A DNA stretch of 36,301 nt from Crocinitomicaceae bacterium (GCA_002720375.1 PBIE01000025.1:4795-41095); one strand, 5' to 3'. Positions 10,807 to 21,585 are shown, counted from the stretch's first letter. The notes: generated by a model from the letters alone, not told the origin. Program-made: numbers and translations.

Positions 10807-10938
10807 CAGGTTTGGCGAAGATACCGCCCACCGTGACTCCTCAAGTCCAACAATCTTTCGCTATTTACTTCGGTATTTTTTCGATGAAATAATATATTAT
10901 ATAGATAAAAAGGTGTATTTTGTATGATTAGAATCGTT

Positions 10939-11418
10939 ATGAACGCTATTTTCCGCTTGTCCCTTCGCGCAGCATTTGCGCTCCTCATTTGCCTCTTGAC
11001 CGGCCCAGGTCACGCGCAGGCCTTCAATCCCGATGCCAATGGAGACGGGCAGGTCGGTGCTGGCGACGTCCTCGCCGTCCTCGCGGTTTACGGTCTGCCC
11101 TTTGATGCCTCTGACTTGGTACCGAGAATTTTGCACTTTGACCCCGATACCACGGCCTCCCTTCCATTGGGTTACGACCTGTACATCGCAGAAGACTTCA
11201 CCTTCCCGTATTTGTATGTCACTGTGCCAGATGGTGAGTTCCCTGGTCAGTCCTTCAGGGTGGCTGTCGAAAAGCAGCCCGATATGGACGACCAGCAGGT
11301 GTACCTACAGGACACCCAAGGAAACTGGTTGGCCTTGGCCCGTCAATTTGAAACCAATGGCAGGTACGCTGAGCTGGTTTGGACGGGCATGCGATGGGTT
11401 TCTTCAAACTTGGACTGA
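10939..11418 (+). CDS. Small secreted protein with N-terminal dockerin/EF-hand-like half-module, otherwise unknown
   Basis: Hydrophobic signal peptide MNAIFRLSLRAAFALLICLLTGPGHAQA followed by NPDANGDGQVGAGDVLAVLAVYGLPFD. Upstream in-frame ATG at 10924 also possible. Confidence 0.75.
   Translation: MNAIFRLSLRAAFALLICLLTGPGHAQAFNPDANGDGQVGAGDVLAVLAVYGLPFDASDLVPRILHFDPDTTASLPLGYDLYIAEDFTFPYLYVTVPDGEFPGQSFRVAVEKQPDMDDQQVYLQDTQGNWLALARQFETNGRYAELVWTGMRWVSSNLD
11026..11109 (+). other. Dockerin/EF-hand-like half-module (protein domain)
   Basis: Encodes NPDANGDGQVGAGDVLAVLAVYGLPFD; DxNGDGxV..xDVL calcium-loop pattern. Confidence 0.65.
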
Positions 11419-11464: not shown

Positions 11465-11548
11465 GCCCGGATGGTGGAATTGGTAGACACGACAGACTTA
11501 AAATCTGTTGGCCCTAGGGCCGTGCGGGTTCAAGTCCCGCTCCGGGTA
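11465..11548 (+). tRNA. tRNA-Leu (anticodon TAA)
   Basis: GCCCGGA...TCCGGGT acceptor, D-arm TGGTGGAATTGGTAGACAC, anticodon stem ACAGA/TCTGT with loop CTTAAAA, long variable arm TGGCCCTAGGGCCG, T-arm GCGGGTTCAAGTCCCGC. Confidence 0.95.
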
Positions 11549-11550
11549 CA

Positions 11551-11603: not shown

Positions 11604-11778
11604 TCAGTCGCATTCGCCGCCGAAGACAGAAAGCATCACGAGCATGTCGGAAGTGGTTACACTGCCATCTCCATTCATGTCGTGGTTGCAGTTGGCAGGG
11701 CAGCCAAAGTCACCGAGGAGCATAAGCAAGTCCCCAATGCCGATGATTCCATCGTTGTTGAAGTCACCAAAGCATTCG
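11604..11778 (-). other. Tandem dockerin/EF-hand-like modules at the exact C-terminus of the giant protease
   Basis: CFGDFNNDGIIGIGDLLMLLGDFGCPANCNHDMNGDGSVTTSDMLVMLSVFGGECD-stop: two DxNxDGxI/V..xDxLxxLxxFG units. Confidence 0.75.
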
Positions 11779-14700
11779 TAGACCTCTTGGAAGGTCAGGC
11801 TCTGCTGCAGAATTTGTGGGTTCTCGCCGTTATTTGTCCGCGTTTGCAAATTCACTGTGAAGCTGACCTCTCCATCGGTGGTCAGTTGAGCGATGAGGAC
11901 CTGTCCGTTCGCATCAGGGAAAGCGGTGGGCTCCAAGTCAGGGTAAATGAAGACCGATCCACCATTGACATCGTCGGCCACGATAGACCCTCCGCTTCCT
12001 TCAAAGGCCGCGAAGTCCAGACCGATGGAGCTGACGTCTGCGGAATTGTCCTCGCCCCCAACGGTCAGCCAGCTGTCAAACTCGAGGAGAGGATCGACAG
12101 GTAACAATGCGGGGTTGTATCCAACCGCAAGTGGGCCACCGAGCGTATTCTGGTAGAACGTTGTCGTGGTGTTGATGGTCATGGGTACACTGTCGAACCC
12201 ATAGACCGCCACAAGTTGTTCTGTGGGATCCGCGAACTCTGCCCAGATACGATAGGTGGTCATGCCTTCCACCGTGTTTTGAGCAACCACGTCGTAGCCA
12301 ATTTGAACGAAGCTGCTTTCTGCTTGCTCGTCTTCATCGCAAATGCCGTCGTTGTCCGAGTCATTGAGGCAGTTTCCATCGCAGTCGACGTTGTCGCTTA
12401 CGGGGTAGGTGCAAGACCCATTGTCCACAGTGGCGGAGGGGCTGTAGTTGCATGCTTCAGCATCTGTGCACCCTGGGATATCACCTCCAGTGCAGGTGTT
12501 CACTGTCTCTGTGGCACCAAAGTCACCACCTGAAGCCACCACAGCACCATCGATTTCCAACGTGTAGCTGCCATCACCCCAGTCACAGCATATTCCATCA
12601 CCGAATGTATCGGTGACCGTCAAATCATAGCACCCTGCTGGTAGACATGTGGATTCCACCACAGTGCCCTCTTGACCGTCATAGGGGCCACCGGACCAAA
12701 CTTCCGAGCCGTTTTCATCGGCGAGGACCCAAGAGAACTCGCCAGGATAGTTGTCCAGAACCGTGGTCATAGTGAAGTTCACGCCTTCAGAGACACAGGA
12801 GCCATCATCGATGACAGCATCGGCATCGTAGTTGCAAGCAGCGGGGTCAGTGCAGCCGCCACATGTGCTGTTGTCACCTCCGCAGACGCCACATTCGTCA
12901 TTTTGAAGGCATGATCCATCTTCGAAGACTGCTTCCTCATCGTAATTGCAGGCCTCGGTGTCGGTACAGCCCGAGCAGGAGCTGTTGTCACCACCGCAAA
13001 CCCCACAATCGTCATTGAACAGGCAAGAGCCGTCATCCGTCGTGGCAGAAGGGTCGTAATTACAGGCAGTCTCAATGGTGCAGCCAACACAACTGTAGTC
13101 ACAATTTCCGTTGTCGATTCCTGCATCTTCATCATAGTTGCAAGCTTGCGGGTCGGTACACCCGAAGTTGATGTTGTCCGTGCAAAAGGAGACGGATTCC
13201 CCATCGCCAAAGTCACCGCCAGACGCAATGACCGTCGAATCTACTGTTAGGGTATATCCTCCGGGTTCGTAAATGCCATCTCCCCAACTGTCCAGAATAT
13301 CGAACGTGTAGCAACCGTCTCCAACGCAGATATTCTCCTCGAAGGTCTCACCTATGCTTGTGTAGGGCCCGCCATTGAGCAATATGTTACCAGTGCTATC
13401 GGATAGAGACCACGTCGTCTCGCCGGGCCATGTGTCTGTTGTGATGCTCACAGCAATGTTTATGCCTTCTCCCACACAGGATCCGTCATCTATGGTTGCA
13501 TCTTCATCATAATTACAGCTGGCAGAATCGGTGCAACCATAGCAACTGAAGTCACAAGCATTGTTGTCGAATTCGGCATCCGCATCATAGTTGCATGCTG
13601 TATTATCGGTGCAGCCATATGCACCGCCGGCACAGAAAGAAATGGATTCCCCATCTCCAAAGTCGCCTCCGGATGCCATAGAAACACCATCAATGGTCAA
13701 ATCGTAGCTTCCGGAGCCCCATCCGCAGCAAATTCCGTCTCCAAAGCTGTCATATATGTTGAAGGTGTAGCATCCATCTCCAATGCAGAAGTTCTCGATG
13801 ACAGTGCCCCCTGCTTCGCTGTAAGGACCGCCACTGGCAACTTGGGCTCCAAGGCTGTCTACCAAATTCCAGGTTGTTTCTCCTGGATAGTTGTCGAGGT
13901 TAATGGTCAAAGCGACAGCGAGACCGTCTCCCACGCAAGAGCCATCATCCAAAGTGGCGTCTGCATCGTAGTTGCAACTCTCAGGATCGGTGCAGCCGTA
14001 GCAACTGTAATCACAGTTTCCATTGTCTAGCTCGGCCTCGGCGTCATAATTACACGCAGTCTCGTCCGTACATCCATAATTACCCCCGACGCACACGGAT
14101 GTCGATTCAAGATCAGCGAATTCACCTCCGTTTACATACTCCACGCCGTCCACACTCAGGACGTAGTCTCCCACCCCATAAGCACAGCAGATGCCATCTC
14201 CGAAACTGTCAAACAACTGGAATGTGTAGCAGCCATCTCCGACGCAGAAGCTTTCTTCAATTGTTGCGCCAGCTTCCGCGTAGGGTCCACCAGAGGCGAC
14301 GGCTGCTCCGGTTGAGTCGAGCAGGTTCCAAGTGGTTTCACCAGGAAAATTGTCCAGAAGCAATGTCAATGAAAAATTAAAGCCGTCGAGCACACAGGAT
14401 CCATCATCTAAAATGGCTTCCGGGTTGAAATTACATGCCTCACTGTCTGTGCATCCTGAGCAAGTGCTGTCGTCTCCGCCGCACACCCCGCATAGGTCGA
14501 GAGCAAGACATGAACCGTCGTCTTCAATTGCCGATGGTTCAAAGTTGCAAGCTGTGCTGTCTGTGCATCCGGCAATTCCGCCACCACCGGAACCACAGAG
14601 TCCAGCAATTGTCCACGATGCGTCGTATTGGACGTTGGCTGAGGTGCTGTATCCGTTGTACAAGGAGACGGACCAACTTCCATTGCCACTGAGTCCAGTT

Positions 14701-16658
14701 CCGGTCAGGTCTAAAAAGGCGGTGTAGGTTCCGGATGTCGTTGTCTGCCAATCGGCAGGCCATAGATTAAAGTCGCCCACGCTGGTGCAACCGGCGGGGC
14801 TTGAATTGTATCCCCCGAGGGCAATGCAGCCGCCGTCTGGGCCAGTGATGGAAATGGCCAGGTCTGCAGGCCAGCTTCCGCCATTGTCTGTATTGGACCA
14901 GTTTAGATTCAGGTCCAAACTCTCAGGGGAGCCCTCAGCTTCGAAGGTGTATGATGCTGATTCTTCCTCTGCACCCAGTGTGACATCAAGTGCGCCTTCT
15001 GCATCGCAATCGCAGGGAAGGTCGTTCTGAGGCAAGATGCATGACCCATCGTCAATGGTGGCAGTTGCATCGTAATTGCAAGCCTCTTCATTCGTGCATC
15101 CTGAGCAACTGCTTCCATCGCCACCACAGATTCCACACACGTCGTCTTGCACGCAAGTTCCATTGTCCTCTGTTGCCTCTGGGTCGTAGTTGCAGGCTGT
15201 GGGATCCGTGCATCCCGCATCGGGATTGCTATTTGTGGGATAACTGTCAAGGGTGAGTTGTCCAGTTCCCAGCGGGTCGAGATAGCCTGACACCCCGACG
15301 CCCCAAGAGACGTCAAAACGTCCGTAATAATCATACGCTCCGTTGTTTACTGAGCCACTGCATGCAGCCGCACCGCCGTATAGCTGTCCGATGATTCTTT
15401 GGTTTCCATCAAAGAGGGGAGAGCCAGAAGAACCAGGTTCAGTGACACCTGCTTCCCATGCATTGATCCACCACACTTGTGCACCTCCCGCAGTAGAGGT
15501 GTAAGGTGCATCGTTTTCAAAACAGATTTTTTTGACGTCCCCGCTGGGGTGGTGAATTCCCACTGCAGAGGTCGGCGCAGATCCGCTGGCATCCCATCCG
15601 GCGTATTCCACATTGAAGTCTGCTGGCGGAGCTGAACTCAGCTCAATCAATGCCACATCGCTGTTGCCGCTGTTCACCAAAAGGGTTCCCCCGGAAATGC
15701 TTTGGTTGGTGGGGCCTGTATTTCCGTCGCAGGTGCTGCTTTCATGGTTGAAGTAGTACACCCAGCTGTTCGGGTTGCCGAGGCAGTGGTTTGCCGTCAG
15801 GAAGTAGGGCGTTCCGTCTTCCAACGTGTTGTTGACCAAAGCTCCTGTACAGACCGCAAATCCACCGTTGGTAATGAGTGCAACTGATTTCTTTTGGGTT
15901 TGCCAAGCAGCGCCTTCAGGACAGTTGACGTTGATGTTGCACGCACCAGAATTTCCAAAAGGGCCCATGTTGGCCGTGTTGGCCTCTGGGTTTTGAGGAT
16001 GGAGCAAGAGGCTCCGGTAGCCATGTACGATTTGACTGATTCGAACTTCACCTAAGCCATGCACAGACTCTGGCTCTTGATATTCCACAACAATGTGGTC
16101 ATCATTCAAAAGACCCAAAGGCAAGAATCCCCAGTCCTTCTCATTGGCTTCTGTGAAGCTTCCGAGGAATTGCGTCCGGGCTTGATTCCAAACAAACAGC
16201 TGTGCACCTGAGGGCAGATCAAAGTCCCCAAGGGTCAGACCGATGCCGGTGGCACCTTCGCAATGGATAGCCAAGCGCCAAATCCAACGGTCTTTTTCGA
16301 ATGTCCACTCTCCAGCATTGTCCAGTCCAAGGCTGACTTCACGTTCTACGCCAAATCGCCAAGGGGCTTCTTTGTATTGATCCGTAACAGCATCTTCCGC
16401 AGCCAGGACATTCAAATCCAGTGCTTCAGAAGTAAACGTTGGAATGGTGGACATGTCGATGTTCGATCCCCATTTCCAAGGCGACCCTCCTTGGGAAATT
16501 TGCGCTTGGGAGATTTGCGCGCCCATGAGCAGGACTATGGAGAGAAAGCAGTTCAGCGCGCCCAACCTAATTCGTTCGGTCGAGGCGTTTGTTGTCGCTG
16601 ATTGAAAGAAAGGGGAGCGCTGCAGGGATGCGGCGTGGAATAGAGAGCAAATTCTCAT
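11604..16658 (-). CDS. Secreted mosaic protein: trypsin-fold (lysyl endopeptidase-like) protease, P-domain-like region, 13 GCTD Cys-rich repeats, 4 GDGCYTF beta modules, C-terminal dockerin-like pair
   Basis: 1684 aa ORF. Protease motifs GTPYFLTANHCLG (His), NSDVALIEL (Asp), GVTEPGSSGSPLFDGNQRIIGQL (Ser). Repeats of the type GCTDPTACNYDPEATEDNGTC. Ends DFNNDGIIGIGDLLMLLGDFGCPANCNHDMNGDGSVTTSDMLVMLSVFGGECD. Confidence 0.9.
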   Translation of the reverse strand: MRICSLFHAASLQRSPFFQSATTNASTERIRLGALNCFLSIVLLMGAQISQAQISQGGSPWKWGSNIDMSTIPTFTSEALDLNVLAAEDAVTDQYKEAPWRFGVEREVSLGLDNAGEWTFEKDRWIWRLAIHCEGATGIGLTLGDFDLPSGAQLFVWNQARTQFLGSFTEANEKDWGFLPLGLLNDDHIVVEYQEPESVHGLGEVRISQIVHGYRSLLLHPQNPEANTANMGPFGNSGACNINVNCPEGAAWQTQKKSVALITNGGFAVCTGALVNNTLEDGTPYFLTANHCLGNPNSWVYYFNHESSTCDGNTGPTNQSISGGTLLVNSGNSDVALIELSSAPPADFNVEYAGWDASGSAPTSAVGIHHPSGDVKKICFENDAPYTSTAGGAQVWWINAWEAGVTEPGSSGSPLFDGNQRIIGQLYGGAAACSGSVNNGAYDYYGRFDVSWGVGVSGYLDPLGTGQLTLDSYPTNSNPDAGCTDPTACNYDPEATEDNGTCVQDDVCGICGGDGSSCSGCTNEEACNYDATATIDDGSCILPQNDLPCDCDAEGALDVTLGAEEESASYTFEAEGSPESLDLNLNWSNTDNGGSWPADLAISITGPDGGCIALGGYNSSPAGCTSVGDFNLWPADWQTTTSGTYTAFLDLTGTGLSGNGSWSVSLYNGYSTSANVQYDASWTIAGLCGSGGGGIAGCTDSTACNFEPSAIEDDGSCLALDLCGVCGGDDSTCSGCTDSEACNFNPEAILDDGSCVLDGFNFSLTLLLDNFPGETTWNLLDSTGAAVASGGPYAEAGATIEESFCVGDGCYTFQLFDSFGDGICCAYGVGDYVLSVDGVEYVNGGEFADLESTSVCVGGNYGCTDETACNYDAEAELDNGNCDYSCYGCTDPESCNYDADATLDDGSCVGDGLAVALTINLDNYPGETTWNLVDSLGAQVASGGPYSEAGGTVIENFCIGDGCYTFNIYDSFGDGICCGWGSGSYDLTIDGVSMASGGDFGDGESISFCAGGAYGCTDNTACNYDADAEFDNNACDFSCYGCTDSASCNYDEDATIDDGSCVGEGINIAVSITTDTWPGETTWSLSDSTGNILLNGGPYTSIGETFEENICVGDGCYTFDILDSWGDGIYEPGGYTLTVDSTVIASGGDFGDGESVSFCTDNINFGCTDPQACNYDEDAGIDNGNCDYSCVGCTIETACNYDPSATTDDGSCLFNDDCGVCGGDNSSCSGCTDTEACNYDEEAVFEDGSCLQNDECGVCGGDNSTCGGCTDPAACNYDADAVIDDGSCVSEGVNFTMTTVLDNYPGEFSWVLADENGSEVWSGGPYDGQEGTVVESTCLPAGCYDLTVTDTFGDGICCDWGDGSYTLEIDGAVVASGGDFGATETVNTCTGGDIPGCTDAEACNYSPSATVDNGSCTYPVSDNVDCDGNCLNDSDNDGICDEDEQAESSFVQIGYDVVAQNTVEGMTTYRIWAEFADPTEQLVAVYGFDSVPMTINTTTTFYQNTLGGPLAVGYNPALLPVDPLLEFDSWLTVGGEDNSADVSSIGLDFAAFEGSGGSIVADDVNGGSVFIYPDLEPTAFPDANGQVLIAQLTTDGEVSFTVNLQTRTNNGENPQILQQSLTFQEVYECFGDFNNDGIIGIGDLLMLLGDFGCPANCNHDMNGDGSVTTSDMLVMLSVFGGECD
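12400..15225 (-). repeat. Protein-level Cys-rich repeat array, 13 copies of GCTDxxACNYxxxAxxDDGSC, interspersed with CGVCGGDxSxC linkers and beta modules
   Basis: Counted by eye in the translation: GCTDPTACNYDPEATEDNGTC, GCTNEEACNYDATATIDDGSC, GCTDSTACNFEPSAIEDDGSC, GCTDSEACNFNPEAILDDGSC, GCTDETACNYDAEAELDNGNC, GCTDPESCNYDADATLDDGSC, GCTDNTACNYDADAEFDNNAC, GCTDSASCNYDEDATIDDGSC, GCTDPQACNYDEDAGIDNGNC, GCTIETACNYDPSATTDDGSC, GCTDTEACNYDEEAVFEDGSC, GCTDPAACNYDADAVIDDGSC, GCTDAEACNYSPSATVDNGSC. Outer bounds approximate. Confidence 0.9.
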
Positions 16659-16812: not shown

Positions 16813-16885
16813 GCGAGAATAGCTCAGTTGGTAGAGCACAACCTTGCCAAGGTTGGGGTCGCGAGTTCGAGTCTCGTTTCTCGCT
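16813..16885 (+). tRNA. tRNA-Gly (anticodon GCC)
   Basis: GCGAGAA...TTCTCGC acceptor, AGCTCAGTTGGTAGAGC D-arm, anticodon stem CAACC/GGTTG with loop TTGCCAA, T-arm GCGAGTTCGAGTCTCGT. Confidence 0.95.
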
Positions 16886-16889
16886 CAGT

Positions 16890-18989: not shown

Positions 18990-19603
18990 AAAGGGAAGCT
19001 GAGTCCGACGAGAAATCCGCTCATCAGCGTGCCGCCGTCCATCTGAAGAAGGAAGGTCATGTCCTTGTATGTGTAGCGGCCTCCGATTTGTCCACTCAAT
19101 CCCGTGCCTCCAATGGCGCTCCCGTCGTAACTGCTCGGCGCGGGACCAGCCCCTGCCCATTTATAGCTGTGTGCGAACCAGCCTAAGGTGAGCCCGGCAA
19201 ACAAATCGAAGGGCGAAGGGGCGAGTTCAATAAAATGATAATTCCCTTGTAGGCCGACACCAAAATATTGATGGCTCCATGTCCCTGCTGAGCCATTTTC
19301 TCGACCCGATTGAAAGGTGCCGATGAGGGCGGCGGAAATGTGGTCATCTAGGGTCTGCTCGACACCGACAAACAAGGGCAGTCCTCTTGTACTCATGCCC
19401 AATCCGGCATTGATGAGGTCCCATCGCTGTCCGGATTGTATTCGCACTTGAGCGTCCACCGTATTTTCGAAGCCAAAGGACGTGCAGGTCAAAAATGCCA
19501 AAAACAAACCCATCCCGCCGGCACCAAAAAGTCTATAAAAAGTAAGAAAATGACGATTGAAAGCCTTAAATTGAAGACGAAATTCTTTGGGGTGAAACGG
19601 CAT
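18986..19603 (-). CDS. Outer-membrane beta-barrel-like hypothetical protein
   Basis: MPFHPKEF..LFGAGGMGLFLAFLTCTSFGFENTVDAQVRIQSGQRW..YFGVGLQGNYHFIELAPSPFDLFAGLTLGWFAHSY..SGQIGGRYTYKDMTFLLQMDGGTLMSGFLVGLSFPL. ORF extends to 19624; start uncertain. Confidence 0.65.
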   Translation of the reverse strand: MPFHPKEFRLQFKAFNRHFLTFYRLFGAGGMGLFLAFLTCTSFGFENTVDAQVRIQSGQRWDLINAGLGMSTRGLPLFVGVEQTLDDHISAALIGTFQSGRENGSAGTWSHQYFGVGLQGNYHFIELAPSPFDLFAGLTLGWFAHSYKWAGAGPAPSSYDGSAIGGTGLSGQIGGRYTYKDMTFLLQMDGGTLMSGFLVGLSFPL

Positions 19604-19680
19604 TGATGTTTTTTTCTCTTTCAAGTTGGTCCCCCGAAGGTCGTTCTTGCCGGGCAGTTGGTGTGGATAGACTCAAAAAA

Positions 19681-21585
19681 ATGTTTCCAGAGGTGTCTTC
19701 AATCTGGGCAGCGGTGCTCTCGCTTTTTCTCATGGCAGCGGTTGGTCATGCAAGGGGGCAGGGCGTTGAGTTGCTTGGACTCAACGTGGAACTTGAGCCA
19801 GGCCAGCAATTTTCGCCAGGATGGATTCTGGCTGCACCAAGGTTCACTTCTAATCTAACCTTCCCATTCCTGGTTGATGAGGAGGGCATTGTCCGCTACA
19901 ATCAAAACCGACCGTACGAGGGCTTCAATTTTGATTTGCAGGATAACAACACCTTGGCTTGGTTTTCGAGTATAGATGGATGGTGGTATCAATTGGACAG
20001 TTCTCTCAATGTCTCCCAATTCATAGGGTATGTGGATGCAGATTTAGATTTTCACGACCTCGAGTTGAGGGACGATGGCACCAAGCTGCTCATGGGTAAA
20101 GAGGTCGTCACCATGGATGTCATCGATAGCGTCCCAGATGCGAGTGATTCGATGCGGTCTGTGCTTGACTGTCTTTTGCAAGAGTTGGACGAGAGCGGTA
20201 ACGTCATTTGGAGTTGGCGAGCGTCTGAACACATCCCCCCCACTTTCTGTGCGCACTGCAACTGGGAGATGCCATTCATTGATGCTTACCATCAAAACTC
20301 ATTCGAGACCCAAGACAATGGAGATATTTTACTCTCTATTCGCAACATGGACATGGTTGTTCTGATTGATAAACTAACGGGAGACCTTGTTTGGCAATTG
20401 GGGGGAGCTGCGAGCGACTTTGTTTTCACGGATGAGAATGGAGCCTTTGCACAGCAACATGACGCCCACCTGCTAGAGGACAACCGTCTGCTCCTTTTTG
20501 ACAATGCCTCCGGAAGTTCACCCCTCACCTCGAGGGGCGCAGAATACATTCTGGATTATGAAGCTGGAACCGCTTCGCTTCTGGCCACATGGCCTCATCC
20601 ACATGGCAGTTTTGCAGGCTCTCAGGGCAGCATCCAACGCTTAGACGGGGGCGGGACCCTCATAGGCTGGGGAACTGCAGGGTCTGAACAGTTCAATGGG
20701 GGGATGGTGTCCGAATACTCGGCTTCTGGGGCGCTCAGGGGGAGCATCTACTTCCCCGAGAATTATTGGAGTTACAGGGCCAGGAAAGTTCCGTTGGGCC
20801 AATTGCCTCTTCACACAGGTTGCGCCAACCCCGTTGCCTGCAACTACAATGATCAGGCAATCGTCGAGGAAGCATGCACAATAGTTGGGACAGAGTGTGA
20901 CGATGGGAATCCTTGCACCTTCGTGGACAAAGTCAACCCGGAATGTGAGTGTGAAGGCGAGTTGTCCGAGTCAGACCCTAGTGGGAGCCAATGCACCGAC
21001 CCCATGGCAATCAATTACAACCCCTGTTCTTCGGTAATATTTGATAATGAGAGTTGTCAATACCAAGTGGAATTTCGGGTGGATGCCACACAGATGAACT
21101 CTGTGCCGGATACTGTGGAAATTGTCTTGTCTGGTTTGGAACCCTTCCTATTTGAGCCTGGAGGATTTGGTACATGGAAGGGCAGCTTGGTTTTGGGAAG
21201 CGGGTTCTGGACTTACGAATTTTGGATTGACGGTTTGACAGATGGTGAGCCAAGGCAGTTGGACCTGAGTTGGCCTGTCGTTTGGGACGGGGAGGTTGTC
21301 AGAGCATGCTTGGGTCTGCCGGAGTCACTGTGTCCAGGGTGCAACGACCCGGACGACTTGGCATTCTCACCTTTTGTTTCTGGGGACTCCCTTTGCGGAT
21401 TGGGCCTTGGTTTGGGTTGCACCCAATCAGGAGCGGTGAATTTCAACCCTGGTGCTTTTTTTGATGATGGTGGGTGTCAGTTCGACATTACCCCAGATTG
21501 CCAGCAGGATTTAAATGGAGATGGACTAATTGGCGTCGCTGATATTCTAGAGGTATTGACCTACTTCGGTGTAATCTGCGATTGA
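19681..21585 (+). CDS. Secreted arylsulfotransferase (ASST)-like protein with degenerate GCTD repeats and C-terminal dockerin-like module
   Basis: Signal peptide MFPEVSSIWAAVLSLFLMAAVGHARG; ASST-like LVDEEGIVRYNQNRPYEGFNFDLQDNNTLAWFS...DADLDFHDLELRDDGTKLLMGKEVV...QQHDAHLLEDNRLLLFDNASG; ends CQQDLNGDGLIGVADILEVLTYFGVICD. Confidence 0.82.
   Translation: MFPEVSSIWAAVLSLFLMAAVGHARGQGVELLGLNVELEPGQQFSPGWILAAPRFTSNLTFPFLVDEEGIVRYNQNRPYEGFNFDLQDNNTLAWFSSIDGWWYQLDSSLNVSQFIGYVDADLDFHDLELRDDGTKLLMGKEVVTMDVIDSVPDASDSMRSVLDCLLQELDESGNVIWSWRASEHIPPTFCAHCNWEMPFIDAYHQNSFETQDNGDILLSIRNMDMVVLIDKLTGDLVWQLGGAASDFVFTDENGAFAQQHDAHLLEDNRLLLFDNASGSSPLTSRGAEYILDYEAGTASLLATWPHPHGSFAGSQGSIQRLDGGGTLIGWGTAGSEQFNGGMVSEYSASGALRGSIYFPENYWSYRARKVPLGQLPLHTGCANPVACNYNDQAIVEEACTIVGTECDDGNPCTFVDKVNPECECEGELSESDPSGSQCTDPMAINYNPCSSVIFDNESCQYQVEFRVDATQMNSVPDTVEIVLSGLEPFLFEPGGFGTWKGSLVLGSGFWTYEFWIDGLTDGEPRQLDLSWPVVWDGEVVRACLGLPESLCPGCNDPDDLAFSPFVSGDSLCGLGLGLGCTQSGAVNFNPGAFFDDGGCQFDITPDCQQDLNGDGLIGVADILEVLTYFGVICD
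21499..21585 (+). other. Single dockerin/EF-hand-like module at the exact C-terminus of the ASST-like protein
   Basis: CQQDLNGDGLIGVADILEVLTYFGVICD-stop. Confidence 0.75.

Follow-up and report, generated by a model that had tools for sequence, protein, structure and literature searches.

The closest described relatives of the protein analysed here come from several systems. Achromobacter protease I (API), a lysyl endopeptidase, matures autocatalytically, and the M43B metalloproteases are probably Arg/Lys-directed. At the other end of secreted proteins, a strictly C-terminal position is typical of sorting signals, whereas dockerins can be internal. A review of T9SS effectors gives CTDs of types A, B and C and never mentions dockerins, and the few papers found that combine dockerins with T9SS describe, in their titles and abstracts, no C-terminal tag of the kind considered below. 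In animals, the structure of mouse perforin-2 (MPEG1) contains a truncated EGF-like module where the MACPF and P2 domains hinge on each other (PMC6989145).

The window (the whole stretch of DNA that was analysed, 36,301 nucleotides from Crocinitomicaceae bacterium, GCA_002720375.1 PBIE01000025.1:4795-41095) belongs to a genome assembly of 1.56 Mb that is 65% complete. A single intact ORF with an ATG start and zero internal stops occupies 11604..16658 on the minus strand and encodes 1684 aa. When this protein was searched against Pfam, only Trypsin_2 scored above the cut-off, with Dockerin_1 and TSP3_bac below it, and the NCBIfam search gave zero matches. A signal-like stretch, a propeptide-like region and the catalytic domain are followed by GCTD repeats, CGxCGGDxSxC loops, a P-like domain and beta modules, and then by a TSP3-like stretch, a module named U and a terminal domain named D, as listed here in protein order (genes A and B are the sister-species genes described below):

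11604..16658, minus strand: ORF of a modular secreted serine protease, 1684 aa (translation)
16503..16562, minus strand: signal-peptide-like hydrophobic stretch, residues about 33-52 (read from sequence)
15957..16508, minus strand: propeptide-like N-terminal region (NT), residues 51-234 (62-76% identity to sister-species lysyl endopeptidases)
15225..15956, minus strand: lysyl-endopeptidase catalytic domain (CAT), residues 235-478 (1arb, PF13365, triad, pocket Asp)
15039..15215, minus strand: GCTD repeats 1-2, separated by a CGICGGDGSSC loop, residues 482-540
14574..15038, minus strand: P-domain-like segment (PD), residues 541-695 (identity to genes A and B)
14394..14570, minus strand: GCTD repeats 3-4 with a CGVCGGDDSTC loop, residues 697-755; the gene-A-like tail starts here
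14076..14390, minus strand: beta module 1, residues 757-861
13935..14075, minus strand: GCTD repeats 5-6, residues 862-908
13617..13931, minus strand: beta module 2, residues 910-1014, predicted Ig-like beta-sandwich (AlphaFold2)
13476..13616, minus strand: GCTD repeats 7-8, residues 1015-1061
13164..13472, minus strand: beta module 3, residues 1063-1165
12795..13163, minus strand: GCTD repeats 9-12 with two CGVCGGDNSxC loops, residues 1166-1288
12474..12791, minus strand: beta module 4, residues 1290-1395
12411..12473, minus strand: GCTD repeat 13, residues 1396-1416
12321..12383, minus strand: TSP3-like Asp-rich stretch, residues 1426-1446 (PF18884, 12.5 bits against a cut-off of 25)
11793..12311, minus strand: U module, residues 1450-1622, rich in beta structure and found repeatedly in the genome, with the only two Arg of the tail (AlphaFold2, pLDDT 74)
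11607..11774, minus strand: dockerin-like domain D, residues 1629-1684, two EF-hand half-repeats with cysteines at the ends (PF00404, alignment)

The protein is a known catalytic type in a new architecture. The initial annotation had counted 13 GCTD repeats and four beta modules, and both numbers stand, the former by exact matching of the 21-residue pattern and the latter with modules starting at residues 757, 910, 1063 and 1290. Its estimate that non-catalytic extracellular modules make up more than 70% of the protein agrees with the 72% found after the catalytic domain (residues 475-1684). It did not mention the propeptide-like region, the four CGxCGGDxSxC loops, the lack of K, R and H in the stalk or the chimeric origin of the gene.

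The head is of the API (lysyl endopeptidase) type. The catalytic domain matches API (1arb) over its full length at E 6e-39 (2e-40 with the domain alone as the query) and PF13365 at E 3.7e-8, and all members of the triad are present (H291, D334 and S411), which bears out the intact His/Asp/Ser trypsin-fold domain proposed earlier. D443 aligns to Asp225 of the API S1 pocket, and on the basis of this residue the enzyme is predicted to cleave probably after Lys. His210 of API, an auxiliary residue beside the pocket that is not common to all relatives, is not conserved, the aligned position being Tyr427. The predicted propeptide junction has no nearby Lys or Arg, a departure from the autocatalytic maturation of API. 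At the N-terminus, translation may in fact begin within the annotated extension. The same genome also encodes a paralog (L011) with the same kind of head and a T9SS CTD at its end.

The origin of this combination can be read from the site downstream of the Kdo-transferase gene, where sister species carry two genes, A then B, in tandem in several of their genomes. Gene A joins an M43 metalloprotease head (PF05572, E 5e-16) to the giant tail, and gene B is a lysyl endopeptidase whose short tail comprises just two GCTD repeats, PD and D. Domain by domain, the window protein matches gene B from the propeptide as far as the end of PD, and gene A beyond that, starting with GCTD repeat 3: CAT is 84-87% identical to gene B; PD is 58-60% identical to gene B versus 44% to gene A; the beta modules are 56-66% identical to gene A; the U module is 79-83% identical to gene A, with 79-86% identity between species overall; and D is 74-82% identical to gene A versus 52-54% to gene B. 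The gene is a chimera, with the head of gene B on the tail of gene A and the crossover between the Gly-rich end of PD and GCTD repeat 3. Of the loci that were read, only those of the window genome and of one other, G080, show the fused form, and these two fused genes are neighbours on the catalytic-domain tree (support 93/94); among named relatives, the closest to carry this fusion is the Flavobacteriales MAG PKDZ01000041 (contig of the same length as G080:C23). Since the tandem A-B state is commoner, the fusion is most simply regarded as derived and the tandem as the older state. The modules of the mosaic first described are real, but the mosaic is not unique, being a head swap at a conserved locus where orthologs vary between 10 and 13 GCTD repeats and between 3 and 4 beta modules. 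As such, it offers a clean natural case of catalytic-head exchange on a fixed stalk.

Further observations concern the surroundings of these genes. At one locus (L064, G245:C29:71000-78421) both tandem protease genes seem to be frame-broken, by assembly error or decay. In the window, the protease gene is flanked by two tRNA genes on the opposite strand, tRNA-Leu(taa) at 11465-11549 (+) and, at the other side, tRNA-Gly(gcc) at 16813-16886 (+). A secreted-looking ORF of 164 aa with one dockerin-like EF-hand near its N-terminus lies at 10924-11418 (+) and also adjoins the fused gene in G080, with 87% identity. At 19603-21585 (+), an arylsulfotransferase-like protein (PF14269) has GCTD-like repeats too, and its C-terminus is formed by a D half-domain in single copy; it and the protease are two D-terminated proteins within 3 kb.

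The GCTD repeat is found in 243 of the 249 genomes of the order. Its 21-residue pattern, matched exactly 13 times in the protein, never arose when the region was shuffled 2000 times. Identity among the copies is 65% at the protein level and 62% at the DNA level, identical residues use the same codon in 429 of 1069 comparisons (40%), and within the repeats TRF detected no more than a single, weak DNA array. Because the protein is conserved while the codons are scrambled, the repeat is old and kept by selection on the protein. The repeat had been described as one of no defined function: it indeed matches no Pfam or NCBIfam family, and the literature search found no paper combining GCTD, Bacteroidetes and repeat, but a solved relative exists. 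A profile of 33 diverse single repeats, searched against the whole PDB, matched MPEG1/perforin-2 (6U2J, residues 332-352) over all 21 positions at E 5.8e-4, with other MPEG1 entries following at weaker significance; the matched segment belongs to the truncated EGF-like hinge mentioned above. The middle Cys is missing from the MPEG1 copy, as it is from 17% of the repeats in bacteria, which makes a loop that the first and last Cys close the probable core. A pairing rule between middle and linker cysteines was also considered and dropped, as the counts showed no clean parity. Judged from their sequence, the repeats are plausible disulfide-stapled acidic spacers that may bind Ca, and perforin-2 gives a structural anchor to a repeat that is order-wide and absent from Pfam. 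In addition, four CGxCGGDxSxC loops occupy residues 508-518, 723-733, 1218-1228 and 1256-1266. They resemble an ADAMTS motif, with a weak PDB match to ADAMTS5 (E 0.04), and they could represent a second short motif also found in animal extracellular proteins.

The beta module (about 97 aa) is nearly as widespread, being present in 242 of the 249 genomes. As the initial annotation expected for both it and the GCTD repeat, it has no counterpart in Pfam or NCBIfam; with no significant PDB sequence match either, its assignment to a known family was rejected. The structure prediction that the initial annotation had proposed as a check, run with AlphaFold2 (27 sequences) on GCTD repeats 5-8 with beta module 2, gave an Ig-like model (pLDDT 85.7). 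The best matches in the fold search were Ig-like sandwiches, namely MmpS5 (E 6e-4, TM 0.51 by target), SpyCatcher and DUF3244, so the module is predicted to be an Ig-like sandwich of generic fold. The U module gave a weaker model (pLDDT 74) that found no significant match in the fold search. Its identification as a cohesin was rejected (2vo8, TM 0.33/0.39, E 0.02), the PDB profile search being unconvincing as well. Two further labels had been proposed for the tail: the P-domain-like segment lies at residues 541-695, and no Pfam P-domain recognises it at E <= 1; the Asp-rich stretch likened to thrombospondin type 3 has a PF18884 score below threshold.

The tail is further marked by a near-complete absence of basic residues. 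Residues 481-1446 (966 aa) contain zero Lys, Arg or His, and the tail as a whole (475-1684, 1210 residues) contains 0 K, 2 R and 1 H. The mature chain, counted from residue 235 (1450 aa), contains 4 K and 4 R, none of which fall within the repeat region, compared with 8-11% K+R in three neighbouring cytoplasmic-type proteins. The same holds well beyond this gene. Across D-terminated proteins, 1 K and 1 R were counted in 11116 residues of GCTD repeats, and 0 K and 1 R in 7750 residues of beta modules; in the order's other families, 1961 residues of beta module hold 1 K and 3 R. T9SS CTDs, by comparison, have 8.8% K+R, and U modules retain Arg. K/R absence is thus a near-universal trait of the GCTD and beta modules, in almost any protein that carries them. 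The exception is one clade of lysyl endopeptidases with T9SS CTDs, whose beta modules hold 9 K and 34 R in 1802 residues. As the K/R-bearing beta modules belong to lysyl endopeptidases, simple protection of the enzyme from its own Lys specificity is disfavoured, and as sole cause of a module-wide trait it is weakened. A general dichotomy in K/R between D- and CTD-terminated proteins was likewise dropped, given that the K/R side is almost wholly that one clade and that two metalloproteases with CTDs have K/R-free beta modules. Because the heads borne by such tails include Lys-directed and probably Arg/Lys-directed enzymes, protease resistance is the favoured cause. Avoidance of positive charge is the alternative, which the near absence of His and the exceptional clade sustain; charge alone, however, fails to explain the pattern, because the beta modules are moderately rich in D+E (13% in the D type versus 19% in the K/R-tolerant T9SS type). 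The strict K/R-free rule in order-wide extracellular modules is one of two points that we consider worth specialist time, and such modules suggest a template for protease-resistant linkers.

The other point is domain D as a candidate export tag. The initial annotation had placed tandem dockerin-like modules at the C-terminus; what is found is one domain of two EF-hand half-repeats that scores 17.8 bits against PF00404, under the cut-off of 22.9. D ends 0-2 residues from the stop in 69 of the 73 proteins examined (in sets that overlap slightly). An esterase-like protein (L030:3-1856, minus strand), in which an internal D is followed by more protein, is the sole clear exception to the C-terminal rule in the window genome. 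D is abundant: within the family a single genome can have as many as 74 matches, although genera g16 and g8 are nearly devoid of it; outside the family but within the order, a dozen genomes have 1-2 sporadic copies. The heads that it terminates are those of typical secreted proteins (Endonuclease I, esterase, M12B, M43, FG-GAP and sortilin-like). Type A CTDs (PF18962) are present in 81 of 81 family genomes, and the window genome has 24 matches to this family, none of them in the 1684-aa protein. SprA_N, of the T9SS translocon, occurs in all six near-complete genomes of the genus and was not found in the incomplete window genome. On the catalytic-domain tree, D is confined to one clade and the T9SS CTD to the rest; the switch happened once, so the contrast between the two represents a single evolutionary event. 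A trade-off between D and CTD across genera was not significant (rho -0.36, p 0.13). Given its position, its abundance and its substitution for the CTD, D is probably a sorting or anchoring tag. Were this so, each genome of this marine lineage would export dozens of proteins by means of a sorting or anchoring tag not yet described, all of them overlooked when predictions look for the known T9SS CTDs.

Taken together, these data suggest that the gene arose when a tandem lysyl endopeptidase head came onto the tail of the neighbouring M43 metalloprotease gene. Its product would be secreted as a lysyl-endopeptidase-type zymogen borne on a multi-module, probably Ca-loaded stalk of about 1200 residues, composed of CGxCGGD loops, Ig-like beta modules and short GCTD loops that disulfides close. 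Being acidic and without Lys, this stalk would be hard to trim by its own enzyme or by other Lys/Arg-specific proteases, and the last 56 residues, domain D, would most likely act as the signal that sorts the protein to the outer membrane or anchors it at the surface, substituting for the T9SS CTD of the paralog. We give this reading as a whole an even chance of being right. Its extension, in which D would be a new class of outer-membrane sorting or anchoring signal parallel to CTD types A, B and C, with dozens of clients per genome in one marine Flavobacteriales family and stalks kept K/R-free so as to survive a surface layer rich in Lys/Arg proteases, is possible but tentative. The tail may instead be a binding device, in which the Ig-like beta and P-like modules keep the protease attached to its substrate (particulate protein, polysaccharide or cells), the GCTD repeats act as Ca-stiffened spacers and K/R are missing only as a result of acidic Ca surfaces. 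The beta modules are in keeping with it, as they are spread through the order beside several secreted hydrolase heads, like substrate-binding appendages, and have predicted Ig-like folds, and so is the absence of His, which avoidance of positive charge would lead one to expect. Nevertheless, Pfam recognises no known binding module in the tail, the fold search yields only generic Ig-like matches and the moderate acidity of the beta modules is insufficient to account for K/R, which leaves this alternative less likely than the main reading.

It has also to be considered that D might be a true dockerin, docking the protease into a cohesin-type scaffold to form a cellulosome-like protease complex. 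The EF-hand pattern, the sub-threshold Dockerin_1 score and PDB sequence matches of the protein that include dockerin-bearing chains point in that direction, as does the weak likeness of the predicted U module to cohesin 2vo8, but this likeness is not significant and the U model is itself moderate. Moreover, cohesins were found neither in the window genome (65% complete) nor in five further genomes of the genus, and only 9 of 61 family genomes have any, with 1-2 copies each despite up to 74 copies of D; together with a strict C-terminal position that fits sorting signals better than dockerins, this renders the docking role improbable. Finally, the variable repeat numbers among orthologs and the exchange of the tail between catalytic heads might be taken to mean that the giant tail is mostly the outcome of neutral drift of shuffled repeats, with length as its only role. 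This is very hard to reconcile with protein-level conservation over scrambled codons, with almost no K/R accepted over thousands of residues and with the high identity of the U module between species, all of which argue for purifying selection on the tail. The protease-resistant stalk ending in a sorting or anchoring signal is thus the reading that we prefer.

Compared with described systems, the protein shares with API (1ARB) a full-length catalytic domain, the triad, the Lys-pocket Asp and a long N-terminal pro-region, and differs in its 1200-aa modular tail, the Tyr at the His210 position and the lack of Lys/Arg at the pro/mature junction. With the M43 proteases of the cytophagalysin/pappalysin family (PMC11674741), it has in common the layout of a secreted Bacteroidota protease followed by many Ig-like domains, and gene A of the sister species even bears an M43 head on the same tail as here; cytophagalysin, however, ends in a T9SS CTD-like domain, and neither GCTD arrays nor a dockerin-like end has been described for it. 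In MPEG1/perforin-2 (6U2J; PMC6989145), the likeness is limited to one GCTD repeat in the truncated EGF-like hinge, aligned at all 21 positions and set between two domains; MPEG1 has it as a single copy without the middle Cys, in a pore-forming immune protein that has no other domain in common. Type I dockerins (PF00404) have the same two EF-hand-type half-repeats, whereas D is below the cut-off, cysteine-capped, strictly C-terminal and without cohesin in the genus genomes searched. The substrates of type A T9SS CTDs (PF18962; PMC10202324) resemble the D-terminated proteins in carrying one C-terminal tag per protein on secreted enzymes, in the same genome and the same paralog family, but while the CTD is Ig-like and Arg-rich, D is EF-hand-like, Cys-flanked and K/R-free.
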